From Crotophaga sulcirostris (taxonomy: Eukaryota; Chordata; Aves; Cuculiformes; Crotophagidae), in NCBI GenBank assembly GCA_013397455.1, contig VYZB01000526.1, positions 120,440-184,439 of the forward strand: DNA of 64,000 nt, written 5' to 3'. Under the pieces are notes generated by a model. The model was given only the letters and a program-made list of their open reading frames with translations. It had not been told where the DNA came from and did not search any database. Positions 21,337-64,000 of the stretch are shown here, in pieces (positions within the stretch are counted from its first letter, which is position 1; the number at the start of each line of letters is the position of its first letter). The translations under genes and the position numbers were made by a program.

Positions 21337-21445
21337 ATTGGATGAGGCACTCAGTACCATGGTTTAGATGAAAAAAAAAAAATTGTGCTGGGTTCTAGGT
21401 TGGACTCGGTGATCTCAGAGGTCCTTTCAAAAAAAAAAATACTGT
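21337..21445 (+). mobile_element. CR1 3' fragment at contig start
   Basis: ATTGGATGAGGCACTCAGTA then CATGGTTTAGATG, GGTTGGACTCGGTGATCTCA and TACTGTGATA. Two A11 blocks (21372-21382 and 21429-21439) overwrite it. The second replaces what related copies show as CAACCTGGTAA. The 5' part is lost in the gap. Confidence 0.9.
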
Positions 21446-21472
21446 GATAATATATATAATATATATACATAT
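21446..21472. repeat. AT dinucleotide-rich tract
   Basis: AATATATATAATATATATAC directly after a CR1 tail, a common place for microsatellite growth from the tail. Confidence 0.8.
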
Positions 21473-22014
21473 CAGGTCACCCTTGCATTACATGCATCAT
21501 GTTGCTTTTTGTAGCCTCAGGTACCTACTTAGTAAAAACAACAAAAAAAAAAATCAAAGCAGGTGCAGGAATCTCCTCTTCCCATCCAACATCAGATTAA
21601 AAAAAAAAAACAACCACCTATTTCCTCCTACCCATGTGTGGCTCCAGAAGCAGCCTAAAAAAAAAAAAATCTGACAATTAAACTAGCATTATGACATTAG
21701 CTTTTAAAACCCTAAAAAAAAAAAATAATGTCCCCGTGTTAGCACAGCGCACACAGAAAACGCCAGGGGCAAAAAAAAAAAATTATTAAAATTAACATTT
21801 AAAACCCGTACCATGAAGTAATGTGTGAAAAAAAAAAAGATAAATCAGACAGTTAAACTAGTAACGTAACATTAGCAGTTAGAATCGTGGCCATGAAATA
21901 AAGTCAAGGTTAGGAGGTGGATAAATCAGGTTGCTCAGCCAGAGCTTCTTTATGTTGACGCTTGAAAAACCCTGACCAGGGGGAAAAAGAGCCAGATGAA
22001 AAAAAAAAAAGGAA
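21473..22014. other. Unique DNA with dense A11 blocks
   Basis: Consecutive grid slots from 21543 to 21828 all carry A11. No gene or repeat was recognised. The words GACAATTAAACTAGCATTAT... (21674 on) and GACAGTTAAACTAGTAACGT... (21848 on) resemble each other over about 40 bp, so a degraded local duplication is likely. Confidence 0.5.
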
Positions 22015-22463
22015 CATGAAGATGATCAGAGGGCTGGAGCACCTCCTATATGGAGACAGGCTGAGACAGTTGGGGTTGTTCAGCCTGGAGAAGAGAAGGC
22101 TCTGGGGAGAACAAAAAAAAAAATTCCAATACTGAAAGGGGCTCCAGGAAATATGGGGAGGGGCTCTTGATCAGGGTGTGTGGGGATAGAATGAGGGGGA
22201 ATGGTTTTAAGTTGAAAGAGATTTAGGTTAAGCTTAAAGTTTTAGATGAGGTATTAGGAAGAAATTCTTTAGTGTGAGCGTGGTGATGCACTAACCAAGT
22301 TGCTCAGAGAAGTCACAAATGCCCCGTTTCTGCAGGTGTTCAAGACCAGGCTGGATGAGGTTTTGAGCAACCTGATTCAGTGGGAGGTGTCCCTGCCCAT
22401 CACAGGGGAGCTGGAACTGGGTGATCTTTAAGGTCTCTTCCAACCCAAACCATTCTGTGATTA
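22015..22463 (+). mobile_element. CR1 LINE fragment
   Basis: GATGATCAGAGGGCTGGAGC, TTCAGCCTGGAGAAGAGAAG, AGGATGAGG-type block, TTTGAGCAACCTGATTCAGT, AGGTCTCTTCCAACCCAAAC and ATTCTGTGATT. One A11 block at 22113-22123 interrupts it. Confidence 0.93.
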
Positions 22464-22663
22464 AACAGGGCCCAAAATTTACCGATGCATTGCCTGATTC
22501 TGGTGTTGTGCAGACATGGGCTAAGCCAGGAGACACTCAGAAGTAGAAAAAAAACCACACAATAAAAGAGGAGATTTGGGCTGTTCTGGTCTTTTGGAGC
22601 CTTCAGGGACATTCCTCTGGTCTATGGTGAAAGATGGTGTAAAGGAACTTCATTGCAGATGTC

Positions 22664-22945
22664 ACAGAATCATAGGATGCTTGGGGATGGAAGGGATCTT
22701 AAAGCCCATCCAGTCCCATCCCCCTGCCATGGGCAGGGACACCTCCCACTGCATCAGGTCGCTCAAAACTCCATCCAACCTGGCCTTGAACACCTCCAGG
22801 GATGGGGTATCCACAACTTCTCTGGGCAACTTGTGCCAGTGCCTCATCACCCTCATAGGAAAACATTTCTTTCCAATATCTCATCTAAATCTCCCCTCTT
22901 TCAGCCTAAAACCTTGCCCCTCATCCTATCCCTGTTCTCCCTGTC
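22664..22945 (-). mobile_element. CR1 LINE fragment
   Basis: CACAGAATCATAGGATGCTT, CCTGCCATGGGCAGGGACAC, CTCCAGGGATGGGGTATCCA and TCTCATCTAAATCTCCCCTC. The minus frame 22662-22856 reads the C-terminal ORF2 residues (REVVDTPSLEVFKARLDGVL). No grid block falls in this copy. Confidence 0.93.
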
Positions 22946-24938
22946 AAAGGTCTAGGAAAAGTCCTTTACTTCTGAGTGAATCTGCAAAGGAAAGACTTTG
23001 GGAAAAGAGGAGACGAGGATGTGCAAAAAAAAAAATCCAAAGCCTTTTGCAATCCAGACCAGCTCCTCAGCCACCTTCTTGAGACATAAGACTGCACCAA
23101 GGTGCTGACTTCAGAGCAGCTGATTTCCTCATCATCCCTCACCCCATCTGCATGACTGGGACGTGTGGGTCTGAGCACAGCCATGCACATGGTGAAGTTG
23201 GCTCAAATCCATCATCCAGGCCCATCTCTTAGTTGTTCAGAATATCTAAGTGAGGTACCTAGTGCTCTTCCTGGACATGATTGGAGGTGGTACTGGTTAG
23301 TTAAGATGTCATTGAATTAATCCAGATTGGTCTCAGAGCCCTCCACAACCTGATAGAATTTGAAAAAAAAAAAAAAAAGAAAAAAAAATGGAAAGTAGGA
23401 AGTAAACTCAGGATACACCATAGAAAAAAAAAAATTTGGTGCCTTAGAAAGTGCAGGAAGGGTTCAACAAGTCATTTGTCTTTCTCCTAAGAAAGGCCAT
23501 TTTTTGTTCTTTGCCCTGTTTCTCGCACAACCCTGGCAAAAAAAAAAAAAGATGTTTAGAGACCTGTTGGTCTGTCTGGATCCTGCCAAAGTGTTTTCTA
23601 ACCCAAGTGATGCAGCAAGGAGCCCTACTAGCATCCCTCTCAGGGTGGACAAAAAAAAAAAACCACATTGCGCTGTGTAAGCTCAGCTCCCCATGGTCTC
23701 CCATGTACCTGACTTTCTGGGTGGATTTCAACACCACAGCCAATGAGTTTCACTGAACATGTGGAAGAAGGGCCATGGAATGATGCCTTGGTTGACAGCA
23801 CTGGGTAAACTCTCATCTGCTCCCAAGTGATTGGTGTTCCCTGAGGTTTGATTTCATGGCCTGAGGGTGGCTGGACTCCAAAAAAAAAAATGCTTGGTCT
23901 GCTGGAGATAACACTGGGCAGCAGCAACTGGAGGACCTGGAGGAAAAAGTTCATTCACCGGTGACAGCCATGCTGTGGGTCACCTTAGGACACTTGTACT
24001 TATCCATATTCTCCACAGCGACAACCTGCACCTCTATAACCTCAGCCATAACCTATATTGCCACCACAGACCATCAAGAAAAATTTCCAGCACAGCTCCA
24101 CACAGTAGGATCCTTCTTTACCAATTTTCTGTCTTCTGGTCATGAGATTCAGGCCTTGCTTTCTACCATGAAGTTTGCTAGGACCTTTACCTTTTTTGCC
24201 CTACCATCTTTTCCAAGAAGAGACAACACCAAGCTGCTTTCACCTACTCAGCAAAACCATCACAGGATCATCAAACTCAAAAAAAAAAAGTTGGAGACAG
24301 AAAATGATGCCCGGTTTATCTTATCTTTTTCTGGATAGCTGGTAGGACCAAAGCCCTGGCCAAGAGGGACATGGCCTTAGAGGGTTACACAAAAAAAAAA
24401 AAAGATGTCCCCAGTTTTTTAGCTGCATGAAGATTCAGGTGCACAGAAATGACAAGAAGGAGGGAAGGAAAAGGCAGGGTGGCGATGGGGATGGGGTGGG
24501 ATATGATGTCATCTTCCTACCCCCAGGGGAACCCTGAATTATTAATCAGAACTAAAACGGTCCCTGCAACCCAAGCTGAGGCGGCTCTGATTTCATCTCT
24601 CGACAGCCCTGGCGCTTGGCTGTGCCGACTCGTCCCGCTTCCGGAAGGGAGCGCGTCTCACAGGGAAAGCCAACGGCAGAATGCTGGAGGGAGCTCTGGT
24701 GGGGAGATGATGCAGGCAAGAGTCCACACAGCATCAGTGCTGATATCAGCCTCCAGCCACATCTCCTCTCAGGTGGTGGGATAAGGAGGATGGAGCCTTT
24801 TTCCCTCTTCACTACTCACTGGGGCTTCTTGACATGGATGGAGCTTGTTGGAGACATCCCATCCTATACAGGGTTTGGAGGATGACCTCTAGCAATCATA
24901 GGCGCAAAAAAAAAAATCACCTATGGATGAACCAAAAG
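22946..24938. other. Unique intergenic DNA
   Basis: No repeat family was recognised. A11 blocks at 23025, 23367, 23424, 23538, 23652, 23880, 24279 and 24393 create lysine or phenylalanine runs in otherwise unremarkable frames. A compact patch at about 24530-24640 (CTGAATTATTAATCAGAACT) resembles a small regulatory element but is not called separately. Confidence 0.5.
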
Positions 24939-25256
24939 TCACAGTATCACAGTATTACAAGGAAAAAAAAAAACTCTTAGATCATCAAGTCCAACCTATA
25001 ACCCAACACTAACACCAACAAAAAAAAAAAACCATGGCACTGAGTGCCTCATCCAATCTCCCCTTAAACACCTTCAAAAAAAAAAAATCCACCACCTCCC
25101 TGGACAGCGCATTCCAATGGCCAATCACCCTTTAAAAAAAAAAATTTTTCCTAATATCAAGTCTAAACTTTCCCTGACAAAGTTTGAGTCGATGTCCTCT
25201 AGTTCTGTCACTGGTCACCTGAGAGAAGAGACCAACCCCTGCCTGACTACAACCTC
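24939..25256 (-). mobile_element. CR1 LINE, TACTGTGAT-tail subfamily
   Basis: CACAGTATCACAGTATTACA, CATCAAGTCCAACCTATAAC, GGCACTGAGTGCCTCATCCA and TTTCCTAATATCAAGTCTAA. It parallels the copy at 4913-5192, which shows what five A11 blocks (24963, 25020, 25077, 25134 and the one at 24906 just outside) have replaced. Confidence 0.93.
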
Positions 25257-25437
25257 CTTCTTCTTTATCCTTCTTCTTCATCCCAGTGCTATGTAACTAT
25301 CTTTAAAAAAAAAAAGTGCAATGAGTTGCACAGGTCTCAGCCTATGTAGAGAAAATAGGGCAAAAAAAAAAATCTTCAGCATCACTCTTACTGCCCAGTC
25401 TCATCAACCTGGACTTATAAAAAAAAAAACGCCTTGC

Positions 25438-25460
25438 CCTTTCCTTCCTTCCTTCCTTCC
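25438..25460. repeat. (TTCC)n microsatellite
   Basis: Five TTCC units after CCCT. It is preceded and followed by A11 grid blocks at 25419 and 25476. Confidence 0.95.
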
Positions 25461-25630
25461 CATTTGTGGATTCCAAAAAAAAAAAACATGTTCCTGAAGA
25501 CCAGATCCTTTCCCAATTAGTTTACTTTTCGCTCTCTCAATCTCTAGTAACGACAATTCTAAAATACTTAGTGGCATTTGTGATGCCCCAAGGGCAAAAT
25601 TCTGCCCTTATTGCTGTGAGATTTCAAGAA

Positions 25631-26026
25631 GCATGAGAGAATTGGAATTGTTCAGCCTAGAGAAGAGAAGACTCCAGGGAGAACTTACAGCAGACTTTCA
25701 GAACTTAAAGTGGCTACAGGAAAGATGAGGAGGGGCGTTTTATCAGGGAGTGCAGGGATAGGATAAGGGGGAATGGTTCTAAGCTGACAGAGGGGAGATT
25801 CAGGTTAGATATAAGGAAAAAAAAAAAAACTGTGAAGGCGGTGAAGCATGGGACCAGGCTGCCCAGGGAAGTCATGGTTGCCCCATCCCTGGAGGCGTTC
25901 AAGGCCAGACTGGATGAAGATTTAAGCAACCTGATCCAGTGGAAAGTGTTCTTGCCCATGGCAAGGGGGTTGGAACAGGATGATCTTTAATGTTCCTTCC
26001 ATCCCAAACTGTTCTATGATTCTATC
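25631..26026 (+). mobile_element. CR1 LINE inside the inverted-duplication arm
   Basis: GAGAATTGGAATTGTTCAGC, AGAAGAGAAGACTCCAGGGA, GGCCAGACTGGATGAAGATT, AACCTGATCCAGTGGAAAGT and tail TTCTATGATTCTATCAT. It is the counterpart of 4289-4690, sharing the unusual GTTCCTTCC/AACATTAAAG ending near 25990. Confidence 0.92.
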
Positions 26027-26181
26027 ATATATAGGACAGGCTGCTGTCTCACGAGTGCAAAGCTCTGTGCCATGGGACCCTATCCCTGATCAGAGACTCC
26101 GTAAAAAAAAAAAGCAAAGAGTCCACCCTGCTTTGGGCTAGTCCCCATTGTGCCTTGCAAACCTTTTCTTGTCTTTTAGAC
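25631..26181 (-). repeat. Right arm of an inverted duplication (partner 4138-4690)
   Basis: 26027-26181 is the reverse complement of 4149-4289 with scattered mismatches: ATATATAGGACAGGCTGCTG, GTGCCATGGGACCCTATCCC, TAGTCCCCATTGTGCCTTGC. The CR1 tail joins at the same place in both arms. A block of 11 A's at 26103-26113 hides part of it. Beyond 26181 the sequence runs into a different CR1 fragment. Confidence 0.75.
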
Positions 26182-26189
26182 TGGAGCCT

Positions 26190-26311
26190 TGAGGCCAGGC
26201 TGGATGAGGCTTTGAGCAACCTGATCCAGTGGAAGGTGTCTCTGACCATGGCAGGGGGTTTGGAAATAGATGGACTTTAATGTCCCTTCCAACCCAAACC
26301 ATTCTGATTCA
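26190..26311 (+). mobile_element. CR1 3' fragment
   Basis: GAGGCCAGGCTGGATGAGGC, AACCTGATCCAGTGGAAGGT, GACCATGGCAGGGGGTTTGG and CCTTCCAACCCAAACCATTC. It follows the duplication arm immediately. Confidence 0.92.
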
Positions 26312-26805
26312 TTTTGACCTCTTGGTATCAAATGGGAAAAAGATGAGGAAGCTTGGAAAAGAATTGCATCATCTGCTAAAACTTTTTAAAAAAAAAAAAT
26401 CTATTTGAGGATATGGATGATTTTTTTTTAATTAAATGTATATTTTAATCAATGAAAGGGTAATGAGTACTGTTTAGGAGGGGGTAAGGAGTTATCTTTA
26501 AAAAAAAAAAAAAGAGTAATTTCCCCCAAAACTCAGATTTCTCTCCAGTTTGGAGGGTGTCCAGACCTCTGATGCTTCTCTGTGGCCCACTGTAGAACAG
26601 TAGCTCATGGTAGCTAAAAAAAAAAACTGCAGCAAGGCTCATCCTTACTTTCAAGTGTGGGAGGAAGGAAGCTGAGGATTTCTGACCTTCCTGGTGAGTC
26701 ATACCTGCAGGTCATGATGGCTGATCCTCTCCTCCAAACTCAGGGTCCTGTATGAGAAAGAAGATTCCTCATCTCTCTCATCGTAGAAAAAAAAAAAAAA
26801 ACACT
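26312..26805. other. Unique AT-rich DNA
   Basis: No gene or repeat was recognised. A11 blocks at 26388 and later slots. A natural T9 run lies near 26421. Confidence 0.45.
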
Positions 26806-26860
26806 GAATCATAGAATCATTAAGATTGGAAAAGACCTCTAAGAAAAAAAAAAATAACCA
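26806..26860 (-). mobile_element. CR1 3' tail fragment
   Basis: AATCATAGAATCATTAAGAT then TGGAAAAGACCTCTAAG, cut by an A11 block at about 26844. Confidence 0.82.
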
Positions 26861-27216
26861 TCAGCCCAAAACATGAAAGCTGTTATTTTCCATTTCAACA
26901 AAAAAAAAAAAGGCTCTTCTGCAGAGGACAGGGACTGTGACAAGCCGATAGCACAGCAAAAAAAAAAATTTTGCATCTATCTTTAATTCTGCAACCCTAT
27001 ACCATTTTCTCACCCTTAGGGAGCCGGCGCTGGGCTGATTCAGCCAAACAAATCCAGGAGTGAGGTGAGCTCTGTCCTGAACTCAAGCATTTGACTAAGC
27101 CTGCATTGACTCCAGAGAAAGCGCAAGGTAACCAGCCCAGATAAGGGCACGGCAGATATTTCCCTTGTAGGAAAAAGGAGACATGGTTAGTTGGTAGTTA
27201 GGAGAGAGAAATCAGC
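26861..27216. other. Unique DNA with CpG-containing patch
   Basis: Contains GAGCCGGCGCTGGGCTGATT near 27022 and GAGAAAGCGCAAGGTAACC near 27115. It could be a small regulatory element but is not gene-like. Confidence 0.4.
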
Positions 27217-27965
27217 ACTGCACCTGGGTCAGGGCAATGCCAAAAAAAAAAAAAGGTTGGTCAGATTGAGAGCTGCCCTGACAAGATGGTCTTGAGGTGC
27301 TGGTGGATAAGAAGCTCAATATGACCAGGCAATGTGCGCTTGCAGCCCAAAAAACCAACTGTGTCCTGGGCTGTTTCAAAAGAAGTGCACTCAGCAGGTC
27401 AAGGAAAGGGATTCTTCCCCTCTAGTCTGCTCTTGTGAGACCACATCTGGAGTCCTGTGCCCAGTTATGGAAAAAAAAAAACAGGAAAGACCTGGATCTG
27501 TTAGAGTGAGTCCAGAGGAGACCACAAAGATGATCATAGGGCTAGAGGACCTCCTCTATGAGGACAGGCTGAGAGAGTTGGGTTTGTTTAGCCTAGAGAA
27601 CAGAAGGCTCCAGGAAGACCTTATAGCACCCTTTCAGTACTTAAAGTGGGCCTACAGGAAAGCTGGTGAGGGGCTCTTGATCAGGGAGTTCAGGGATAAA
27701 AAAAAAAAAAACGGTTTTAAGCTGGAAGAGGGGAGATTTAGGTTAACTATCAGGAAGAAAGTTTTTCCTGATAAAGTGGTGAAGCACTGGAACAGGCTGC
27801 CAGGAGATGCTGTGGATGCCCCATCCCCAAAGGTGTTCCAGGTCAGGCTCGATGACGTTTTGAGCAACCAAAAAAAAAAAGAGGTGTCCCTACCCATGGC
27901 AGAGGGGTTGGAACTGGATGATCTTTAAAGTCCTTTCCAACCCAAACCATTCTATTATTCTATGA
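27217..27965 (+). mobile_element. CR1 LINE, long copy with an almost continuous ORF2 remnant
   Basis: GCACTGCACCTGGGTCAGGG, GCAATGTGCGCTTGCAGCCC, GTGAGACCACATCTGGAGTC, GTGAAGCACTGGAACAGGCT and tail ATTCTATTATTCTATGATT. The plus frame 27332-27928 reads 198 codons of ORF2 C-terminus ([20 protein letters not shown]), but the KKK stretches within it are A11 blocks, for example 27870-27880. No endonuclease or reverse-transcriptase domain is present. Confidence 0.94.
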
Positions 27966-28677
27966 TTTTTTTGCATTTTTATGAGTTGAGGTGTCACTCA
28001 TGGGCTACGTAATATCCCTCATGATGCTGCTTTGTATCACAAAAAAAAAAATGAAGGCCATGGAGCGCATCAGCAACGTGTGGTTTTGATGCCTTCAAAA
28101 AAAAAAAAAATATTGGGAAGACAGGATGAAATGCCACTGGAAGACTGATCAGTAAGGTCGGTGAAACATAGGGAGCATTTCCTCCTCTCAAAAAACAAAT
28201 CCTACATAAGGAAAAAAAAAAAATCCTAAATTCCACCAGCAGTATTGACTGGCTCTGCATAAGAGGAGTCTGGATATCAAGCTCAGATCTAGATGACTTT
28301 GGTCTTGGCTCCTCTACTCAGTGAGAAAAAAAAAAACCAAAGTTTTTAGTGAAAATACCTATTAACATTTGTTATCATGCCTGACAAGGTCTTACTCCCT
28401 GAGACCTGCTGCGTTGAACATGCTGAAAATATGGCTTTAAGTAAAGAGGGTGTCTACAGGTTGATTCAAGTGCTTTGTATGCAAATTGCAATGTGGCTGC
28501 GATATATCAAAGTTGAGAAGTGTGCAAGTTCAGTTATTCAAACTGCAATAATGGAAACAGATCTTAAATTCACAGGAGCATGTTGGGAGAACAGTACAGA
28601 GTTACAGTGTAAAAAAAAAAAGACAAGTCCAACAAAGACCAAATAGTTCAGCATTTGCAGACAAAAAAAAAAAAAAA
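27966..28677. other. Unique intergenic DNA
   Basis: No repeat family was recognised. A plus frame 28377-28646 (89 codons) has no recognisable domain and ends in an A11 block. A11 at 28041 and neighbouring slots. Confidence 0.45.
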
Positions 28678-29874: not shown

Positions 29875-31019
29875 ATTTTCATCTCTGAGAACCACTTTGC
29901 AGAGTGGGTTCCTGCAGATCTAAAAAAAAAAATGAAGGAAACAGTGGAGAGAGTCCCCTTGCAGTGAAACCTTCGTTCAAAAAAAAAAATTACTTTCCTC
30001 TTTGTTACTTAATTTAAAAAAAAAAAGTCCTAAATAAAAAAAAAAATTAGAGCATAGGTCTGCCAAGGAGGTTACACTTAAGTCTTCTCTCTGCCTAAAT
30101 GCTCACCTTCATTTTAAACAGCCCTGGAGAAAAACCTCCTGTTTGCACCAAAAAAAAAAACTCGGCATGTGGCCTTTCTCATCCTTACTTTCTTATCTCC
30201 TTCGTTTTGATCTTCTACCAAGGGAATTGGGGCTGACTGTAGAAGTCCACATCTTCCACAACAAAAAAAAAAAAAAACCGGTCGAGTTTTTCTTTGAGTA
30301 TCCCAGTGATGCTGTGGGTCTGCCATGAGATTCGAGGCAGTAGGTCTCCCTTTACTCCTGCCTCTTCTTCCTCCCTTTGAGGCCAACTTGTAGATTTCCT
30401 ATCTGCATCATGGCAATGGGGTGATTATCAGTGAAAAAAAAAAAATCAACAAGAAAGAGCTTTGTTAGCATTTTCATTGTCTTCAGGAGTGAGTTCAGGG
30501 CATGAAATCTGAATATGTGTTTGCATTTATGGATACATGTAGGTCCATATAGGTAGGTATACCTTGAAGTGTCTGCACAAATAGATACCCATGTGCATCT
30601 CTCCACATAATACATATTTGCATATGTGTGAATACCTAATGCTTATTTCAACTGGGCCCCGAAATCCAGCTGAGACCTCTTGCAGTTCCTACCACGGATG
30701 GCTACTCAGAAAGGCTGATAAAAAAAAAAAGATTCCTGGGAGACCTCTCTCTCTCTCTGCCTCATAAGCAAAGTGCAAAAAAAAAAAGGTTTGAGGATGC
30801 AGAAGGGAGCTGCTCGCTCAGCAGCTGTGCTACAAGGCATGTTTCCTAATGGGGTACTTGCAACTGGGTCGATGGGGCAGAACCAGTTTCTGGAGGGAAG
30901 ATACGTGGGGAAGAGAAAACTTTCTCCCCTTGATTTAGGGGATGGCTGTCCAGCTTTAAATCCATACCTCATCTTTCAATTATAGATTGTGTTTTCCTCC
31001 TTCTAGCAGCCACAAGAAG
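29875..31019. other. Unique intergenic DNA
   Basis: No gene or repeat family was recognised. A short CT run (about 30746-30757) and the A11 blocks are the only low-complexity features. Confidence 0.45.
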
Positions 31020-31110
31020 CTTGAATACGCCTCAGCTGTCACATTAGACCCAAACATGTACAGCCAATATTTAGGAAACTTCACTTTTCCCGAAATAAGA
31101 ATTCCTCAAT
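31020..31110 (+). repeat. Direct repeat flanking a CR1, left copy
   Basis: CTCAGCTGTCACATTAGACC (31031 on) and AATATTTAGGAAAC match 31811 on with an ungapped 780-bp offset, through AATAAGAATTCCTCAA. The CR1 at 31107-31799 lies between the two copies. Confidence 0.7.
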
Positions 31111-48510: not shown

Positions 48511-49052
48511 TCATAGAATCATGGAATTCTTTGGGTTGGAAGATACCATCCATTTTCAACCCCTCCTGACATGGGCAGGGACACCTCCCACTGGACTGGG
48601 ATGCTCAATGACCCATCCAACCTGGCCCTGAACACTTCCAGAGATGGGGCAGCAACAGCTTCTCTGGGCAACCTGTGCCAGTGCCTCACCACCCTCATAA
48701 TGAAGAATTTCTTCATAGTGTCTAATCTGAATCTCCTCTCTTTCAGCTTAAAACCGTTGTCCCCTCATCCGATCACTACTTGTCCTTGTAAAAAGTCCCT
48801 CCCCAGGTTTCCTGTAGCTCCTTCAGGTACTGGAAGGGAGCTCTAAGTTCTCCCTGGAGCCTTCACTTCTCCATGTTGAACAACCTCAACTCTCTCAACC
48901 TGTCCTCATAGCAGAGGTGCTCCAGCCTTCATGGTGAGGATTCCAGAACTGGACACAGGAAAAAAAAAAAGGTCTCACAAGAGCAGAGCAGAGGTGGAGA
49001 ATCCCCTCCCTCGCCCAAAAAAAAAAACTTCTTTTGATGCAAGCCAGGGCAT
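48511..49052 (-). mobile_element. CR1 LINE, host copy of a nested insertion (3' part)
   Basis: CATAGAATCATGGAATTCTT, CTCCTGACATGGGCAGGGAC, TTTCCTGTAGCTCCTTCAGG, TCCTCATAGCAGAGGTGCTC and TTCTTTTGATGCAAGCCAGG. It is interrupted at about 49052 by a plus-strand CR1 and resumes at 49569. Confidence 0.93.
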
Positions 49053-49568
49053 CAAAACTGGGCCCCTCAGTTTAAAAAAAAAAACAGGATACTGGAGAAT
49101 GTTCAGAGGAGGGCAACAGAGATGGTGAAGAAAAAAAAAAACAAGCCCTACGAGGAGCGACTGAGGGAGCTGGGGCTGTTTAGTCTGAAAAAAAAAAAGC
49201 TCAGGGGAGACCTTATTGCTCTCTACAACTGCCTAAAAGGAGGCAAAAAAAAAAAAGGGGTTGGTCTCTTCTCTCAGGTGACCAGGGACAGAACTAGAGG
49301 GAAAAAAAAAAAGCTTCGTCAGGGGAGCTTTAGACTTGATGTTAGGAAGAAGTTCTTCAAAAAAAAAAAGATTGGCCACTGGAATGCGCTGCCCAGGGAG
49401 GTGGTGGAGTCGCCGAAAAAAAAAAAGTTTAAGGGAAGACTGGATGAGGCACTCAGTGCCATGGTTTAGGTGATGAGATGGTGTTAGTGTTGGCTTATAG
49501 GTTGGACTTGATGATCTCAGAGGTCTCTTCCAACCTGGTTATACTGTGAAACTGTGTGATACTGTGAT
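49052..49568 (+). mobile_element. CR1 LINE nested inside another CR1
   Basis: AAAACTGGGCCCCTCAGTT, GGAGAATGTTCAGAGGAGGG, CTGAGGGAGCTGGGGCTGTT, GGCACTCAGTGCCATGGTTT and tail TACTGTGAAACTGTGTGATA. Every one of eight consecutive slots from about 49068 to 49467 carries A11, which gives the reading 49122-49469 its KKKK every 19 residues. It resembles 17735-18081, which shows the true bases. Confidence 0.94.
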
Positions 49569-52333: not shown

Positions 52334-52969
52334 AGAAGTCTGGGGAACACGGGGTTGGTTCTTGGCATAAGCCAAGGAAGGACAAAACAACTTGGTAGCT
52401 CCAGAGGAGGTAAAGAGGATTCGCAGGAACAGGAAAAAAAAAAAAAAAGCGGCTGAGCATGATGCAAGCTGTCCCTCAGCTCTTCGATCACTCAAAAAAA
52501 AAAAGTAGCAGGAGCAAATCAGTATTTTCAGCCTAGGAAGTTAAAAATTCAAAAAAAAAAATGGAGAAAACAGTGGCTGAAACGTGTATGAGGGACGGGC
52601 TTTGAGTGTGTCTGATTCTCCTCTTGCACTGTTTGATATCCCTGATTCCAGGGTCAATTATCATGACTGATACAGGATCAGCATGACAAAAACAGATCTT
52701 AACACACCCACGGGCCCTGTGAGCTGACATCATTTTGTCTGGACCAGGTTCAGTGCCTGAGGAGCAAAGCAGGCTCAGCACCACACAGCAAAAGCCTCAC
52801 CTGCCTCACATCCCTATAGGCATGGGAAATGCAAAAAAAAAAAAGTAGTCCCGCATCTTAGCAAGTCGACAGGGCTGTGGGTGCTGAGTCAGCATCCCCT
52901 GTCCTGCGCTCCATCCCAGGGAGGAGGAAAAAAATCTCCTGCTCAACCGAAACACATCTGACTGCTCCG
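52334..52969. other. Unique DNA containing the -2 grid shift
   Basis: The grid changes phase between 52562 and 52833 without a visible block in between. No gene or repeat was recognised. Confidence 0.5.
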
Positions 52970-53190
52970 CGAATAAAAGCGCATCCGCTCCCCTTCGCCC
53001 CCAGCAGAAGCACCAGCAGATCCTTCACTTTAATGTTAACTGAGTTTTAGCGTTGGCCCCGGGCTCTGCCATTTATCTACAAGGCTCGGAACAGCGGGAG
53101 AGCAGAGTTAATAAATCCGCTCATGTGTCGCCTGTAATCAGGTCTGTAAATAAAGTGGAGCTGTCAGAGAGCGGCAGCCCGTGCTGCTGG
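52970..53190. promoter_or_regulatory. Candidate conserved regulatory island
   Basis: GCGAATAAAAGCGCATCCGC, CTTTAATGTTAACTGAGTTT, GCCATTTATCTACAAGGCTC, AGTTAATAAATCCGC and TGTAAATAAAGTGGAGCTG (a FOX-like TGTAAATA). It is rich in CpG and TAAT words and block-free. One of the better candidates in the right contig. Confidence 0.38.
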
Positions 53191-54265
53191 GCTCCTCACC
53201 GTCCCGTGGGGTCGGGGGTATCACATCGGTGTTGTCCTCTCCATGGGGTGCAGGATGTGATACCCCACTCCATCTGCCCATCCTGCAGCAAAAAAAAAAA
53301 ATCAACTGCTCTTTCCTGGCTGTTAATGTACTTTTTTCCTACGCTGAAAAAAAAAAAAAATGGTTTAAGGATGCTTACAATTTGTATTCCCCAAATCTGC
53401 AGAATCCATGAACATGGGAAGAGCAGAACCTCCTGGAAATAAGCAGATTTACTATCTCAAAGACAAAACCACTGCCTCCAGGCTCACACTCCAAGCACCC
53501 CCTCCTTCCCACCCAGGCTACCCAGTCAGGTCTAACATCTCCCATGAGATACCCCTATACCTCAAGACAACATCCTGACTATGAGAGGGGAAACCGAGGC
53601 ACGCTGGGAAGGGAAGCAGCACACCAAGGTCAAAAAAAAAAACAGTGGCAGGATCCCAACGGCAGCCTGCCGCTTCCTCCGACTGCAGGCAGAGGGGAAT
53701 TGATTCCAGTTAAGTCCCCCGGCAGGCGCGGGGACTGCGGAGCGGTTCAGTAGGGGAAGATTTCCTGTAAGACGGGAAGTTTTCCTCCTGCTCTGCCCTG
53801 CTTCCCCCATTCTGGTCCAGCTCTGGGAGGCAATCCAAGCACTACTTATCTTTAATTATAAAAAAAAAAACCATCGTAGTTACTTATGTGCAGTGGAGCC
53901 TCCGGGATGTTCCTGCCAGCAGTACCAGGGCACAAAGCATCCCTCGATGCTTCCTCTGCTGCGGCTGAATCACAAAAAAAAAAAAATTGACATCCACCAC
54001 AACTCCGCACACAAGAACATCCACCTGCTCAAAAAAAAAAACTCCACCACCAACACCCCCTCCCCACCCTCTCCGAGCCCCTGGGAGAAAAAAAAAAAAC
54101 TGCTACCAATTGCAAAGCTGTTACAGAAAGGTGGACAGAGGTGCAAAAAAAAAAATCATGACCCAGAAGGAGCCATCGGGTTGTGGAGCATCTTGCAGAT
54201 CAGCAGATTATGGCAGGTCTGGGGAAGGACCCAAGAAAAACTTCCTCATCCTTTCCTCTGAGTTT
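53191..54265. other. Unique DNA, partly CpG-containing
   Basis: No gene or repeat was recognised. Frames at 53053-53442 and 53181-53411 carry artefactual lysine runs. A11 at 53632 and further blocks to 54150. Confidence 0.45.
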
Positions 54266-54800
54266 AGAATCATAGAACTATTTCATCGGAAAAGACCTTT
54301 GAGATCATCGAGTCCAACTGTACCTGTCCACTACAAAATCATATCCCTGAGCTCCTCATCTACCCATCTAATAAATACTTCCAGGAATGGGGACTCCACC
54401 ACCTCCCTGGGCTGCCTCTTCCAGTGCCTGACAACCTTTACAGTGAATACATTTTTCCTGATGTCCAATATGAACCTTCCCTGGTGCAACTTGAGGCCAT
54501 TTCCTCTCGTCTATTTCTTGTTGCTTGGGAGAAGAGACCCACCTTGCTACAAACTCCTTTCAGGGAGTTGTAGATAGTGATAAGGTGTCCCCTCAGCCTG
54601 CTCTAGGCTAAACAATACCAGCTTCCTCAGCTACTCCTGATAATCCTTGTTCTCCAGCCCCTTCACCAACTTTGTTGCCCTTGTCTGGACATGCTCCAGC
54701 ACTTCGATGTCTTTAAAAAAAAAAAGGGCCCAAAACTGAACACAGGATTCAAGGTGTGGCCTCACCGATGCTGAGTACAGGGGCACAACCACTTCCCTGG
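54266..54800 (-). mobile_element. CR1 LINE, AAAAGACCTTT-type subfamily
   Basis: GAATCATAGAACTATTTCAT, TTGAGATCATCGAGTCCAAC, ACCTCCCTGGGCTGCCTCTT, AATATGAACCTTCCCTGGTG and GACATGCTCCAGCACTTCGA. One grid block near 54715. Confidence 0.93.
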
Positions 54801-55721
54801 TCTTTTCCCTGCAGATCCTGAGAACTCCACTTTGGGTAGGCTCTGGGGCATGCTAATGAGGAGAAAACTGCAATAATTTTTTCAGAAAAAAAAAAACCAC
54901 CAACAAAATGGGCAGCCCATATCTCATGACCAAAACAGCCAAAAAAAAAAAAATAGACCCAGCATCACTTGCAAGAAAGATTTACTGGGCAGGGAAGTAG
55001 CTTAGTTTCGGGTGGGTCATGGAGAAGCCCCAGGTCAAGGTGAGTTTCCTCTGTGCTGATGGTATCAGCTCTTCAAAAAGCTGCATAATGCTGGTATCCT
55101 TCTAAGGCACAAAGGATCGGCTTGTGTAAGCCAGGAGCCCAATAGGTAAAGATGCTCCAAGGTAAGACACTCCAAGAGGTTCTAGCAATACACCCTGGCC
55201 TCTAACCACCACTCTTGGCACATCCTGAAAAAAAAAAAAGAGGACCCTGTCTCCTTTCAGCCACCTGCTGACAAATGCCTCTCCAAATATCTCTCCAGCA
55301 CAGAGTTAGAGTGAAAAATGCTGTGGTCAGAGCATGGGAGGGAGGCTCCTGCCCACAATTACATGTGTCCCAGATACCACTGTCTTTACACATCCCCTGT
55401 GACCATTGCTGCCCTCACACCACACTGATCTCCTCCTCATCTCCAAGAGCTGTGGAGCAAAGCAGTTTTCAGCAGCCCAGGGCAAGGTGAATCCCCTGCC
55501 TTCGACTTCCTCAGAGCTCATGCTTGCCAGAAGAGCTGAGCAAATATTTTTCATGGAGCATCAGAAAAAAAAAAAAAAAACAAAGCCTGAGCACTTCCAG
55601 GAAACACAGAGAGACGAGCAGCACTTGTAAAGGAAAAGTATTCAAAGATTTGCAGGTAAACTGGAAAGTCTGAGTTTGGTTGATTTATTATCATAGCATG
55701 AAACATTGACACAAACATGAT
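54801..55721. other. Unique intergenic DNA
   Basis: No gene or repeat was recognised. Overlapping frames 55275-55490 plus and 55327-55554 minus share the same bases without a domain. The last block of phase 52 is at 55570-55580. Confidence 0.45.
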
Positions 55722-55769
55722 TCACTTTTGGCTTTGAGATAGTAAACCTGTCACTTTTGGCTTTGAGAT
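55722..55769. repeat. 29-bp tandem duplication at a grid phase break
   Basis: TCACTTTTGGCTTTGAGAT begins at 55722 and again at 55751. After the first copy comes AGTAAACCTG, in the slot (55741-55751) where the phase-52 grid predicts a block. After the second copy comes an A11 block (55770-55780). The phase then moves by exactly +29. This looks like real sequence inserted beside its uncorrected, overwritten version. Confidence 0.85.
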
Positions 55770-55842
55770 AAAAAAAAAAACTGTTTCCAGGAGGCATTAC
55801 ACTGTTCCTGTGTTCACAGATACTGCAAAAAAAAAAAATGTG

Positions 55843-55950
55843 GGGAATTTCCTTACTGAAAGGGTTGTCAAGCACTGGAAAAGAAAAAAAAAAAAAGTGC
55901 TGGAGTCACCATCCCTGGAGGGATTTAAAAGACTTGTGGAAAAAAAAAAA
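55843..55950 (+). mobile_element. CR1 LINE fragment
   Basis: GGGTTGTCAAGCACTGGAAA, GTGCTGGAGTCACCATCCCT and GGAGGGATTTAAAAGACTTG, with two A11 blocks. No tail follows. Confidence 0.85.
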
Positions 55951-57194
55951 AAAAAGTTAACTACGCGTGGGAGGCTGGCACAGTGAATGGCTGAGCCATT
56001 CTGATCTGGAGGGAACCTACATCGACTGGGACAACAGTAACATCATGAAGGTCAAAAAAAAAAAATGAAAAGCTCTTTGCTTGTATTGGAATGACACCAG
56101 ATTGAGAACTGAAAAAAAAAAAGCAGAATAGTGGCTGGGAAATACCTGGTTGAGCAGCCATGGTGCTATGGGCTGACAACTGCTGTCAGTCTGGACGTGA
56201 GCCATCAGTCACTCTCATCCCAAACACACCAAAACACATCCAGGACTGCAGACTCCAGAAGATCTTCCCACCAGCTCCTCTAGGACTGCGATAGTCACCC
56301 AAATCTTAAGCACCGCTGGGTCCCACCACCGCCTGGTCTGGACCTCACGGACCTGCAGCATTGCAGCCTTTCTCCTCTGCCCCAAGCCTATACACCAGCC
56401 TGGGATCACTGCATGGAAAAGACCCTCAACAATGTCCAGTAGCAGAGTGAGGTCCATCTCCCGAAGAGTTTTCCCTGAATGCACAAAACCAGATGCAGTC
56501 CATTCCTGGTAAAAAAAAAAATCACAGCTCTCCTCCCCTTAACACAGAAAGAGATCTGCTTTATATTTCATGAGCTGGGGAGTTCTGATGAAACCCTGAC
56601 CAGACAAGAGCTTTGTAACAGCAGCAAATCCAGCATCCTATACCTCAAGTCCCTGTGGCAGGTGTCTACCCGTCCATCTTTGGATGAACTGCGTGAATGA
56701 AGCTGCAAGCTAGACAGTGGTGAGAAGATGGGAGACAAGTCTTGGATCATGGCCAAGGAAGTGGGAACCCAGCACATGGATGGATCACGTGATACTAGGG
56801 CTTTGCTCTGTCATTCCCTTGGAGGCCACCCAGCAAGGGTCACTCCCTAGCAATGAAGTTCATACCTGATGGATCCCCAGCAGAATGTAGGAAAAGAAAG
56901 GGCTCCAGTGGTTCAAATCAGGCAGACTTCAAAGAGAATTTTTGAGCCTACAAAAAAATTTACTGAAAAATGGACACAATTAAGGAAGAAGAAACAGGAA
57001 CCTATTATGTACACTAAGTTCCCAAAAAAAAAAAAGAAATTGCCCTCAGATACTTTCATATCCTGCCTTATGCGACAGCCAAAAAAAAAAAGACAAGATC
57101 AATCCACAGAGCCATCTGCGGGGATGTTGGTATCTCCCTCAAACAATGGCAACAAGGTTCAGTGGAGCAGCCACATATTGTCACACTGCTGATT
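55951..57194. other. Unique intergenic DNA
   Basis: No gene or repeat was recognised. Blocks at 56055, 56112, 56511, 57024 and 57081. Confidence 0.45.
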
Positions 57195-58055
57195 TTGAGC
57201 CAGATGGAGGCAATGTCATCCAGAGGGACCTGGACCAGCTGCAGAAGTGGACCTGTGTGAACAGCATGAGGTTCAACAAGGTCAAGCGCAACGTCCGACA
57301 CCTGGGTCGGGGCAGCCCCCAGTACCAATACAGGCTGGGGGGGATGATGAGATTGAGAGCAGCCCTGCAGAGAAGGACTTGGGAGTGTTGACTGATGAGA
57401 AGCTCGACATGAGCTGGCAATGTGCACTTGCAACCCAGAAGTCCAACCATGTCCGGGGTTGCATCAAAAACAGTGTGACCAGTAGGTCAAGGGAGGGGAT
57501 TCTCCACCTCTACTCTGCTCTTGTGAGACCCAACCTAAAAAAAAAAATCCAGTTCTGGAATGTCCAGTATAAGAAGGATATGGAACTTTTGGAACAGGTC
57601 CAGAGGAGGACTACAAAGGGCTGGAGAACCTCTGCTATGAGGACAGGCAGAAAAAAAAAAAGTTGTTCAGTCTGGAGAACAGAAGCCTCCGGGGTGACCT
57701 CATAGAGGCCTTTCAGTGCCTGAAGGGGAGCTGCAAGAAAGCTGGGGAGGGAGTTTTTACAAGGAAAAAAAAAAACAGGATGAGGGGTAATGGCTTTAAA
57801 TTGGAAGGGGGGAGATTTAGAAAAAAAAAAAAGAGGAAATTCTTCACCATGAGGGTGGTGAGGCACTGGCACAGGTTGAAAAAAAAAAATGTGGATGTCC
57901 CATTCCTGGAAGTGTTCAAGACCAGGTTGGAAGGGAAAAAAAAAAACCTGGCCTAGTGGGAGATGTCCCTGCCCATGTCAGCGAGGTTGGAACTGGATGA
58001 TCAAGTTTAAGGTCCCTTCCAACCCAAACCATTCTATGATTCTATGATTCTATGA
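57195..58055 (+). mobile_element. CR1 LINE, longest copy in the right contig
   Basis: CAGAGGGACCTGGACCAGCT, AGGTTCAACAAGGTCAAGCG, GAGAAGGACTTGGGAGTGTT, AGTAGGTCAAGGGAGGGGAT, GAGGGTGGTGAGGCACTGGC and ATTCTATGATTCTATGATTC. The plus frame 57247-57705 reads ORF2 residues such as [15 protein letters not shown]. Frame breaks and A11 blocks interrupt it. Confidence 0.94.
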
Positions 58056-59313
58056 GTCCTATGGAAGAGGAATTGCAAAAGGACCTGCCAGTGGTGTATC
58101 CAAAGTAAAAAAAAAAAACCTGTCCAGGCACAACCGAGGGAAAACACATTCAACCACTTAAGAGAAAGGAGTCTGCGAAGTTCCACTGATGTCCATCAAC
58201 TTTGCCACTTTCTCTCTTTGAAAAAAAAAAATTAATGAAAAGGTGGTTTTCTTCCAGATCATTTGCAGTAGGTTCCCAAAAAAAAAAACAGAGGAGTTCC
58301 CCGTTGCCAGCACCAATGAACTGAACTGGGATTCAAGGATGGAAAACAATTCAACCAGGAACTCCAGTAGTATAGCTAGCATGGGGACTGTTATGTCCCA
58401 GTTTCTCTGCCCTCATCCCCGTCTACCCCGTACCCTGAGCAGCCTTGCCTTTTCTGGAGAGCTGTGTTTTAAAGAGCTTGTGCAGAATCCACCCCCAGGA
58501 GTCCTTCTGGCTCTCCACAGGCTTGATTAGCTGGAGCTGCATTTCTGAGGGCTTCGTTGGACGACTTCAGCTCAGGAGGGAGCACAGACCACTCTGCAGC
58601 CTCAAACAACTTCTTGATGTTAAATTCCCCAATCTCCCAGTGCTGAATCCACCTTGAAATTGGTCTCGAAGCCTCTCTTTGCAAGCAGTCAGGAGCGGGG
58701 CTTAGGAGGAGGAGGGGAAAAGGAAGGGAAAATAAATTAGATACATTTTCTGCGAGAAGAAGAATTAAAAGGAGAAATTCAACTCAGCAGTGGAATAATG
58801 GAACTCTGTCTGGGAAATGCCCATTGTGAAAGAGCAGTGAGGAGAGGAAAAAAAAAAAAGCAGATACGCTGGCAGCAGTGGGAGGACTCCAGGAGCACCA
58901 CCGGAAAAAAAAAAATGAGCATCCTGCCAGGTCAGTCCTGGCCAAGGTCAAAAGCCAGGGTCTAAGTAGGAGGCTCTGACTAGGCTTGCTGGCAAGAGGA
59001 GTGCAGAAACATGGGAGGGTTTAACCACAGCAATAACAAATATTAAAAGCTTTTTTTCCTGTGCTTTCCAGCTATAAAAAAAAAAAGAGTGTGGAATTGC
59101 GTCTTCCCCATGGAGGGAAGGTGAGGACTAGTACTATTTCAAACTCTAGACACCAGGTTTCTGTGAAATGGTGGGAGGAAGAGACAGGATTTTATTCAAA
59201 CTGGTTGTTCTCTTCTTGCAAGACTCTGCCTGTCACTAAAGGAGGCACTTCTGGCTCTCTCCAGAGAGGAACAGGAGCAGCATATCCTTAAAATCAGAGC
59301 TTGATAGTTGAGA
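58056..59313. other. Unique intergenic DNA
   Basis: No gene or repeat was recognised. Blocks at 58107, 58221, 58278, 58848, 58905 and 59076. Confidence 0.45.
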
Positions 59314-59410
59314 AATCATAGAATCATAAACTAATTTGGGTTGAGAAGGACCTTAAATATCATCTAGTTTCAACCCTCCTGCCATGGGCAGGGATTCTAG
59401 ATCAGGAGTG
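59314..59410 (-). mobile_element. CR1 3' fragment
   Basis: AATCATAGAATCATAAACTA, AAGGACCTTAAATATCATCT and CAACCCTCCTGCCATGGGCA. Confidence 0.9.
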
Positions 59411-59710
59411 GCTTTCTAAAAAAAAAAAACTCAGAGACACCAATGTCATTGCCAGTCCATGGTTTTCCTTGAGTAAAAAAAAAAAACCCTGGCAAAGAGA
59501 TGGATTGGCAACATCTTCAAAGCTGGAAATGTTGCTCCTCCAGCCCTGCTGAAGGCAGGGAAAGTGGCAAATGTCTCTTGTGCCTGTTAAAAAAAAAAAG
59601 ATGGTTTACAAATCTCCTTTCAGGATATAAGAACTGATTTGTGGTGATAATTGGAAAGGATCTAAGTTCAGTTAAATACCAGCATTGTCTGGTTTTCATT
59701 GCCTGCCCAA

Positions 59711-59990
59711 AATCACAGAATCACAGAATGACCTGAGTTGGAAGGGACCCACAAGGATTAAAAAAAAAAATTCCTGTCCCTGCATAGAACCCAAACATTC
59801 ACACCGTGTTTCCGAGAAAAAAAAAAAAATGTTTCTTGCATATTGCCAGGCTTGGCACCATGACTGCTTCCTTGGGAAACTGTTCCACTGCTCCACCACC
59901 CTCTGAGTGAAGAACCTTCTCCTGATATCCAACCTAAACCTCCCCTGACCCATCTTCCTGCCATTCCCTCGGGTCCTAAATCATCCTTTT
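59711..59990 (-). mobile_element. CR1 LINE fragment (TCCTTGTGGG subfamily)
   Basis: AATCACAGAATCACAGAATG, TGGAAGGGACCCACAAGGAT, CCCAAACATTCACACCG, ACTGCTCCACCACCCTCTGA and CCTGATATCCAACCTAAACC. Blocks at 59760 and 59817. Confidence 0.92.
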
Positions 59991-60059
59991 CAGGGAGGAA
60001 GGCTATTTCTCCCTCCTCTTTTCTCCCCCTACCTCCCCCTCATCTGCTCCAAGCTTGAC

Positions 60060-60345
60060 AGGGACAGGTCAGTCAGTCCGTCACTGCTAATCTTTGGATA
60101 CTTTTAGTGTCACTCTAATGACAGCACACCTCTCTGCCGAGCCGCCGAGCCACAGCAAAAAAAAAAAAATAAGGCCAGCAGCCCCTCTGAGCAAAGTGGC
60201 TTGCCCGCTGCCAGGGCCCTTCTTTCCCCCTGCAAATGGCATCTGGACGATTAGCCCTGCCGCCCGTGACAAGAATCGGACGTGAAGCCTTCCACTTTGA
60301 GATGCATTAAAGCCCTTCGCTGGAAGCGCTCGGAAGTGCACCGCT
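60060..60345. promoter_or_regulatory. Candidate conserved regulatory island, CpG-rich
   Basis: CACTGCTAATCTTTGGATAC, AGTGTCACTCTAATGACAGC, CCGAGCCGCCGAGCC, GGCATCTGGACGATTAGCCC and GAGATGCATTAAAGCCCTTC. TAAT cores combine with local CpG richness. One A11 block at 60159. Confidence 0.36.
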
Positions 60346-61884
60346 CGCATCCTTCGCTTGCCCTCTCAACCTCTCTGCACCTCACCCTCCCTGCTCCCAC
60401 CCTTCTCCTCCTCTGTGAGGACCAAGTGGCTTGGGGGATGCTCTCAGGTGCACCCAGGATGGTTTAGGCTCATTCTCTCTACCCCTGCTCCCTGTGTGAT
60501 AAAAAAAAAAAGATGACGTATTTCCACTCTGTTAGGTTGTTATTAGGGCTCTGTGGTAAAAAAAAAAAGCTTTGCCATAGGACCCCAGGTTTGCCATGAA
60601 AGCGATCAGTATCTGTTCCCAGCATCTCTTTTCATATGGATAAATTGAGGGTACCCAGCCAGCACTTTGGATGCAGTTGCTCTGTTTTACAGAGTAAAAG
60701 GGTTTGATAGTGCGAAATCATCCAGCCTTGGAAACCAGAACTGTGCATTTTTAGCTTCGATAGAGAGGTTTGAGGCCACCAGCCCCAAACCAGATCTTCT
60801 TGCCACCTCTGTGCACAAGGAAAACAGAGTAAGATGACAGCCAGGGGGTGTTACAAAGCAATTCTCTTCCAAACTCCTATCTTCACTGGTTTTTGGTTCA
60901 AAAAAAAAAAGGTTGCTGTCACCAGCAGTACATGTGAACGAGAAAGCAGGACCCTCTTGGTTGGTATGTGAACCACACAGCGTTGCTGGGGTGAATGCCT
61001 AGAGCTTCCAGACAGTTGTCCCAACCCCACTCCACCCTGGGTCCTCTGCTCCCTCCTCAAGGGAACCAGCGTGCTCTTTCCCACCTTAAGTGGCTGCAGA
61101 GCTATGCCGTGCACTGGTAAAGAGCTGAAAAAAAAAAAGCGCAATGCTATTAATAATAAATAAGCTTGTCTGTTGGTTTAGAGGATTTTGTTTTGCTGCA
61201 GGGCTCATCAAGGCATCCATCGGGACCTGTTGCATCCGAAGAAAAAAAAAAATCCCTAAACCATTAAACCATCTCCGTTGCACCGTGCAATACAATCGAA
61301 AAAAAAAAACATTTGTGTGTTGGTACAGACCATCAATTCCAGCTCTCGGCATCATGGGATGTGGGAAGGCAGCGTGAGCTCTGGCACAACTCAAAGGCTC
61401 TCACAGCGTTTCCCCTCATTTCACCAAATTTGGGGTTGCAAGGTAAAAGGTTGAGAGCTCAGTATGGTTCTGTTCAGCTCAGCAATTCCGTTGCATTCAG
61501 AGAAGTGCACCCTGGGGAAGGTGAGATGTGTTATTCCCATGCCCTGGCGCATGTCCCAGGCAGTGTAGGGATGAAGTCAGAGGAAAAAAAAAAACAGATG
61601 GGTGTGCTGAGTGTTGTAGGCAGCCAGCGTGACCTGGAGCAGGGGATGAACCAGAACCAAGAGGCAGAAAGTCACCAGGAGTCAGAAAGGGCACAGTGGG
61701 AAACTGGGATTGCATGCTGCAGCCAGAACCGTTTCGGGGGGTTGTGGCTGACTGAAAAAAAAAAACACTTGACTTCATGCAAGACCTTGGGCGTGTCTCA
61801 GGCTCTCCCATTAGAAAACAATTTCGCCAATCCCTCCCCAGTCACTGAGGCTATGACTGTATTAGAAATCAGGCAGTGGTAAAG
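60346..61884. other. Unique intergenic DNA
   Basis: No gene or repeat was recognised. The plus frame 61313-61882 (189 codons) has no recognisable domain and contains artefactual lysine runs. Blocks at 60501, 60558, 60900, 61128, 61242, 61299, 61584 and 61755. Confidence 0.45.
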
Positions 61885-62060
61885 AATGTGGTCAAGCCCT
61901 GGAATCCAATCACTGTTAAATTATTAGTGCAATCCCTGAGCGTCCATGGACCAGCCCAATTAGCAGCCTCCCAGATGATTCACAAAGACATTGTGCACTC
62001 ATCCTGGGCCAAGAGGACATCTCCAGTAGATCATTAGATATTACCACAATGTTGAGGAGT
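61885..62060. promoter_or_regulatory. Candidate conserved regulatory island
   Basis: TGGAATCCAATCACTGTTAA, ATTATTAGTGCAATCCCTGA, CAGCCCAATTAGCAGCCTCC and AGATGATTCACAAAGACATT. Block-free, repeat-free. Confidence 0.33.
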
Positions 62061-62089
62061 GCAGGAGATTTAATGAGGCAAATACGGAT

Positions 62090-62470
62090 TGACAGTAGCC
62101 CTGAAGAAAAGGATTGAGAAGTTCAACATGAGCCAGCAATGTCCACTTGGAGCAAAAAAAAAAAACGATATCCTGGACTACATCAAAAGAAACATAAATA
62201 GTAGGTCAAGAAAAAAAAAAACGCCCCTCTACTCTGCTCTTGTGAGACCTCACCTGGATTCCTTTGTTCAGTTCTGCAGTCCTCAGCACAGAAAAGACAT
62301 GGATCTGTTAGACCGAGTCCAGAGGATGCCACAAAGATGACCCGAGTGCTGGAGCAGCTCCCATGCAAGGAAAGGCTGAGAAAAAAAAAAAATTCAGCCT
62401 GGAGAAGAGAAGGCTCTGAGGAGACCTTATAGCAGTCTTCCAGACTTAAAAGGACCTACAGGAAAGTCAC
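62090..62470 (+). mobile_element. CR1 LINE, truncated at both ends
   Basis: TTCAACATGAGCCAGCAATG, CTGCTCTTGTGAGACCTCAC, GTCCTCAGCACAGAAAAGAC, GGAGAAGAGAAGGCTCTGAG. It ends near CCTACAGGAAAGTCAC without the 3' tail, which is unusual for CR1 and implies a later deletion. Confidence 0.9.
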
Positions 62471-62804
62471 AAGAATGAGTGGGGAAGGTCTGGTGAAAAA
62501 AAAAAAGGAAAAGAAGTCTCCCTTGGGATCTCCACTTATGGCACAGATCTCTAAAAAAAAAAACCTTTCCCCACATTGTGGCTCCTTTCTATACAGCTGT
62601 GGGGCATTCAACCACTCCTCTATGCCTGTGCAGACACAGGCCCCCAAGCCCAGGGCAAGATGGGAAAAAAAAAAAAAGAAACCTATAGCACTTGTGAATC
62701 CATAACTAAGCTTCATGGCTGAAAGCGATGGGACAAGGGACCTTTTGGGGTGTCTGATATCACTCACTCCTGAGCTGGAGCTGCTTCAGATCATATCACC
62801 CAAG
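62471..62804. other. Unique intergenic DNA
   Basis: No gene or repeat was recognised. Blocks at 62496, 62553 and 62667. Confidence 0.45.
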
Positions 62805-63013
62805 GGAATGGCAGGAAGATGTGCCAGGGAAGGGTTAGGCTGGATGTTAGGAAAAGGTTCTTCACCCAGCGGACGGTGAAGTACTGGAACAGCTAAAAAA
62901 AAAAAGATTCGTGGCACCAAACCTGACAATATTCATAACCTTCTGACAACACCCTCAGACACGTGGTGTGAATGTTGGGGTTGTCCTCTGCAGGGACAGG
63001 AGCTGGACTCGAT
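62805..63013 (+). mobile_element. CR1 LINE fragment (TCCTTGTGGG subfamily), 3'-truncated
   Basis: GAATGGCAGGAAGATGTGCC, GTTAGGCTGGATGTTAGGAA, CGGACGGTGAAGTACTGGAA and GGACAGGAGCTGGACTCGAT. The expected ATCCTTGTGGG ending is absent, replaced by the 11-bp tandem repeat that follows. Confidence 0.9.
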
Positions 63014-63046
63014 GTTTAATATTTGTTTAATATATGTTTAATATTT
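63014..63046. repeat. 11-bp tandem repeat, three units
   Basis: GTTTAATATTT, GTTTAATATAT, GTTTAATATTT at 63014, 63025 and 63036. It sits exactly where the CR1 3' end should continue. Confidence 0.88.
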
Positions 63047-64000
63047 TGTGGTCTATTTATGGCATTTGACTCCACATCTCCCTCGTTTAGGGGCATCTGG
63101 TCACTGAGAACTTGGAGCCTCGAAAAAAAAAAAAATACAATACAATGGAAGGAAAAACCTCCCCTTCTCATGGCAACCCAAAAAAAAAAATCTACTTCTT
63201 CCCTGCTTTTCCATTCCCTTAAACCTCCACAAATCCAAAAAAAAAAAGCCATGCACATGCAGAAACTCTTCCTTCCCCTCCACACTCCTCCTCAAAAAAA
63301 AAAACCTCAAATTCCTCGTTTCCCCTCACACATCCTCGTTTCCCCTCCACACTCCTCCTCCTCTCTCTCCCCCTCCGGTTGCTTGAGAAATTCAAACCTT
63401 CTTCCTATTAGGAAGAAAAAAAGGACATGCTGCTAGGTTGAAAGAGAAAGCAGAGGAATGGGTTAAAGGGGTTGAAATTGGAGCTTTATGGATATTTCTC
63501 TCTCTCCTTTGTGAGCGCATTAAACTTTTCTTCGTTAAAAACCAAGAGGACAGGAATGGGAAAGGAGAGGCGAGAAAGGAAAGAGAAAGTGGGGGGAAAA
63601 AAAACCCTCAGATATTCATGTGTGACACAGCTCAGGGAGGTGAGAAAAAAAAAAAATTTGCTTAATGCTGACAGGTCTTTCTTCTTATTGGAAAGAAAAC
63701 ACAGCGGGGATCCTAAAATGTGCCATGTAAAGGTCCATGGCAGGAGCATTTCCAATCTTCCGTGGTGATGCTGCAGGCCAGGTATTCACACAGGGAAAAA
63801 TAACACAAAAAGTTCTTCAGTCGGCTCCTATTAACCTGCTGCCTATGGTAATGCTGAGCCTAAAGCTACTCCAAAAAAAAAAAAGCTCCCACGCTACCTG
63901 GCACGGGGATGTGTATGTGTTGGTGTGGATAAAAAAAAAAACATCTCAGCCTGCCCAAGTGGGACACACAAAAGCAGGAGGTGGGAGAAAAAAAAAAAAA
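63047..64000. other. Unique DNA to window end
   Basis: Pyrimidine-rich from 63140 to 63400, then purine-rich from 63530 to 63600. TCCTCGTTTCCCCTC occurs at 63313 and 63333. The grid shifts by +10 here. No gene was recognised. Confidence 0.5.
63645..64000. other. A11 substitution grid, segment 4 (phase shifted by +10)
   Basis: Blocks at 63646, 63874, 63931 (exactly 11 A) and 63988, with remainder 34 modulo 57. The +10 change falls between 63305 and 63645. The window ends inside the last A run. Confidence 0.9.

Follow-up and report, generated by a model that had tools for sequence, protein, structure and literature searches.

Within the window, by which we mean the whole stretch of 64,000 nt that was analyzed, the part of a contig at positions 21337 to 64000 is overlaid by slots of 11 bases at an exact pitch of 57 bases, each of which holds either ordinary sequence or a replacement of its bases by 11 A's (A11); the neighboring contig is free of this grid. 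The A11 grid is almost certainly an artefact of sequence assembly and not biology, and it should be read as a data-quality warning instead of a biological feature. A preliminary description had called it a corruption of the deposited sequence, and the artefact reading is supported by paralogs, by protein relatives, and by an onset bound to an assembly unit after an N gap. The corruption thus stands, but two phase steps indicate an origin before later edits of length, so that the final file is probably not where the damage arose.

A11 occupies exactly 264 of the 739 slots spaced 57 bp between 21337 and 64000, and the other 475 are ordinary sequence, with no slot partly converted; the count of 739 leaves out slots in the intervals that hold phase steps, and wider segment bounds give 264/748. 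The exact pitch that had been described is therefore correct, but only 36% of the slots are converted and most are intact. When all A-runs of at least 10 in the 64-kb window (n = 268) were listed with their starts modulo 57, the grid proved real: 264 of the 267 runs of at least 11 include a slot of the grid, and the remaining three are located off it, at 4138 and 10079 in the clean contig and at 30016. Runs were also said to be exactly 11 long where the neighbors are not A, which agrees with the 150 on-grid runs of that length; the rest are lengthened by flanking A, found on the left side of 59 and on the right side of 79 of the 264 slots. The clean contig has 14 A11 starts in 21189 positions, a rate that would translate into 0.49 A11 slots among 739, and a three-slot pattern matched 11 times in the window but 0.00 times on average in 100 shuffles. 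Counting the A's in each slot gives 11 for 264 slots, 0 to 7 for 475, and 8 to 10 for none (about 2.8 slots with 8 A's are expected from background 11-mers, and 0 were observed), which means that a slot is A throughout or else ordinary sequence. The A's are found on the + strand only, with two T-runs of at least 10 in the whole window, and no slot contains at least nine of C, G, or T, so that no other filler letter occurs. Base composition is flat across the other 46 offsets (11 to 56) of the 57-base period, and the A11 slots cover 2904 of the 42664 contig bases in the window (6.8%). The sole off-grid A11 run of the corrupted contig, at 30016-30026, has a remainder of 34 inside the phase-54 stretch and is probably natural.

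The grid follows assembly units. The contig at 1 to 21199 contains three A-runs of at least 10, with unrelated phases, and no remainder modulo 57 occurs more than twice among its 25 A-runs of at least 6. Past a scaffold gap of 137 N (21200 to 21336), the grid starts in the contig that directly follows. The first slot is located 35 bases into that contig (region 21337-21382). Phase 54 modulo 57 extends over 21337 to 52600, with A11 in 200 of 550 slots (counted to 52700), the first at 21372-21382 and the last at 52551-52561. An interval at 52562 to 52833 holds a step from 54 to 52, and phase 52 then continues over 52834 to 55580 (14 of 51 slots, counted over 52700-55600), phase 24 over 55770 to 63304 (46 of 137, counted over 55600-63450), and phase 34 from 63646 to 64000 (4 of 10, counted over 63450-64000), where the window ends inside the grid; all four segments lie on the + strand. 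The constant remainder that had been claimed holds for nearly all runs within 21371-52551, which start at 54 or, where a natural A precedes the slot, slightly below it, but later gives way to 52, 24, and 34, by steps of -2, +29, and +10 that all come after 52551.

Two of these steps have a counterpart in the surrounding sequence. A 29-bp tandem duplication on the + strand (55722 to 55769), recognizable by a 19-bp exact repeat at 55722-55740 and 55751-55769, adjoins the A11 slot at 55770-55780, and a 21-bp direct repeat at distance 67, also on the + strand (63273 to 63360), lies around the A11 slot at 63294-63304. The spacing of 29 equals the +29 step, the spacing of 67 equals 57 plus the +10 step, and each repeat is located in its own step interval. 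A scan for exact direct repeats of at least 19 bp (inner period above 6, distance 12 to 150, A11 slots masked) returned just these two in the corrupted contig and none in the clean one. The 19-bp threshold was chosen after both repeats were known, and the scan was repeated at minimum lengths of 11 to 19: the corrupted contig holds only these two repeats at 16 to 19, three at 14 to 15, four at 12 to 13, and five at 11, and the clean contig holds none from 17 up, one at 13 to 16, three at 12, and six at 11. A third near repeat (15 bp, distance 20, position 63313) falls in the last step interval with a spacing unlike the step, and the interval of the -2 step contains no direct repeat of at least 11 bp besides the A slots. 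The agreement of two steps with two spacings suggests that these copies were still missing from the version in which the grid arose, and that its length was edited afterward; judging from the two matching lengths, the grid is probably older than both edits. Such an order speaks strongly against an origin of the damage in the finished file or during the scan, and in favor of a mid-pipeline fault on one contig. The spaced copies touch A11 slots (55741-55780 and 63294-63308), one lying left of its slot and the other around it, which may reflect chance or a later edit acting at slots.

To compare the slots with related sequence, we aligned copies of repeats in the window to each other with the A11 slots masked, leaving out any pair in which a gap fell close to the slot (105 of 873 for A11 slots and 362 of 1749 for intact slots) as well as further pairs with a masked partner. 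A11 slots showed an identity of 0.246 to their paralogs, compared with 0.806 in their flanks (697 pairs, 77 slots), and intact slots showed 0.803, with 0.792 in their flanks (1245 pairs, 121 slots). Region 17743-17999 of the clean contig aligns without gaps to 49221-49477 through four A11 slots, and the copy at 24939 to 25212 (+ strand) of the repeat at 4921-5194 likewise aligns without gaps across four consecutive A11 slots. This latter repeat is interspersed and common to the clean and corrupted contigs. The repeat copies were called CR1 in the preliminary description, a name that we treat as putative; none of the 10 open reading frames (ORFs) tried matched a Pfam family. The slot at 27870-27880, cited there as an example of overwriting, holds up nearly as described: its best-matching paralog reads TGATTCAGTGG at this place, and the intact slot at 25932, which is also preceded by GCAACC, reads TGATCCAGTGG.

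Homologous proteins contradict the A's in the same way. In a repeat-derived ORF on the + strand (49038 to 49466), seven slots are translated into lysine runs at intervals of 19 codons, and the frame is kept. From 8000 candidates scored, 6554 relatives passed, of which 120 were listed; among these 120, 301 of 2448 residues match at slot codons (12%), against 9901 of 12750 outside them (78%), and none of the 120 carries at least two KKK runs. The named proteins among the listed relatives are from birds, several being called reverse transcriptase, and for this reason we read the genome as bird-type. A second ORF had three relatives, in which the grid was not seen by eye. A search of phage records with one ORF gave no match, nor did an Rfam scan of the window at gathering thresholds. 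Taken together, the paralogs and the protein relatives confirm the earlier claim that bases were overwritten without a change of length, and on these comparisons A11 replaces bases and is not inserted.

Which slots are converted appears to depend little on the sequence around them. The grid had been described as ignoring biological boundaries, and it is indeed blind to the features considered: A11 occupies 103 of 264 slots in repeat-like sequence and 161 of the 475 slots elsewhere (P = 0.17), and occupancy is not significantly related to GC content in 41 bins of 1 kb (P = 0.20). A11 slots have a slightly lower GC content in the 10 bases around them (0.459 versus 0.485; P = 0.007), a difference that loses significance when 23 or 46 bases are considered (P = 0.20 and 0.26). 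The 11-mers GGATAAGGGGG and CAGGGATGGGG are found among the intact slots and also among the sequences inferred to have stood in A11 slots, so that a choice of slots by the overwritten letters and nothing else can be ruled out. Slot index modulo 2, 3, 4, 5, 7, 8, or 16 had no effect either (smallest P = 0.20). Neighboring slots, on the other hand, agree weakly with each other: occupancy has a correlation of 0.18 at lag 1 and 0.08 at lag 2 (standard error, 0.037), and it forms 279 runs where 341 are expected, a value reached in 0 of 2000 permutations. Converted slots thus cluster weakly, at short range.

These observations point with high confidence to a fault in the middle of the pipeline, whether or not slots were refilled afterward. 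Such a data-processing fault would have put A over 11-base slots, at a pitch of exactly 57 bases, in one contig of a draft assembly of a vertebrate, probably a bird. Its coordinates would have been those of the contig, with a single strand affected, and it would have preceded a later step that altered the length of the contig in a few spots and, presumably, also the joining of contigs over the N gap. Somewhat favored, in our view, is a course in which slots were blanked and then refilled: most likely the blanking affected slots over the full length of the contig, after which a step based on reads would have restored about two thirds of them to their exact sequence, with A remaining in the others; this would be the reason why 64% are intact. 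The short-range clustering and the later edits suit this version. Yet the repair of 475 slots might be expected to leave some of them partly repaired or changed in length, while none is partly converted and the phase is steady over 31 kb, and read-based repair might link occupancy to repeats or GC content, for which no significant link was seen (GC in 1-kb bins). The -2 step with no located cause and the 15-bp repeat at 63313, whose spacing differs from the step, also count against the main explanation.

Alternatively, a mid-pipeline fault may from the start have struck no more than roughly one in three of the 57-base records, in short bursts, with nothing refilled and with the length edits coming later through ordinary polishing. 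We give this selective overwriting a serious chance, if somewhat below an even one. It is well suited by the 475 intact slots, all of them clean: slots are all or none without any sign of part-repair, intact slots resemble their paralogs as much as flanks do, and there is no significant dependence on repeats or on 1-kb GC content. However, by itself it gives no reason for hits on a third of the slots as opposed to every one, and the short-range clustering requires damage that came in bursts.

Corruption at the last step, be it in the writing, transfer, or extraction of the deposited sequence or in the scan's own pipeline, is very improbable. A fixed pitch irrespective of sequence content is what faults in the handling of files or records typically produce, and 57 bytes correspond to one 76-character line of MIME base64, an idea for the number 57 that would favor such an origin; a last-step fault is, however, not expected to start at a contig boundary or to step in phase by the distance between tandem copies in the sequence. 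A natural feature, such as chromatin-phased oligo(A) tracts or insertions, or a family of tandem repeats whose unit is 57 bp, has the periodicity alone in its favor and can be rejected with near certainty, as the preliminary description had already held, given that the 46 bases between slots are flat in composition and form no period-57 array (Tandem Repeats Finder returned 21 rows, none with period 57), that slots overwrite repeat-derived ORF sequence with its length unchanged, that the A count per slot is either 11 or background-like, and that the phase is strict over 31 kb and the grid is missing beyond the assembly gap; base replacement, all-or-none A counts, and the grid statistics likewise rule out natural poly(A) and phased elements.

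Because length is kept and 57 bases are 19 codons, reading frames survive the damage and show lysine runs, or phenylalanine runs on the other strand, at fixed spacing. The grid could thereby yield plausible but false ORFs, single nucleotide polymorphisms, and substitution rates. It is tempting to speculate, at odds that we would put just short of even, that fixed-pitch slots, blanked and partly refilled, represent an undescribed class of silent assembly corruption in public genomes, which quality checks miss since it preserves length and frame and shows up as lysine runs at intervals of 19 codons, and that it also affects more of the contigs in this assembly and perhaps other assemblies made with the same pipeline. 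A scan for A11 or T11 at a 57-base pitch would reveal further affected contigs.

A literature search covering titles and the starts of abstracts found nothing on such a grid in those parts of the records. The three-slot pattern had no match in viral_contigs and genome_contigs, two collections of viruses, bacteria, and archaea from which records close to the genome of the window may be absent and which serve as negative controls only. Two known behaviors of sequence software nevertheless offer comparisons. Sequence storage in 2 bits, or assemblers, can turn ambiguous or blank bases into A, and the grid would resemble such an N-to-A conversion in that A would stand on the stored strand for blank bases, with length kept; in contrast to ordinary N calls, the blanks here would lie on a strict 57-base pitch. 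Similarly, a collapsed tandem repeat can be expanded later by polishing, and the copies spaced by 29 bp and 67 bp would resemble such an expansion as length added at two phase steps, a likeness that is confined to these two steps and extends neither to the grid itself nor to the -2 step.
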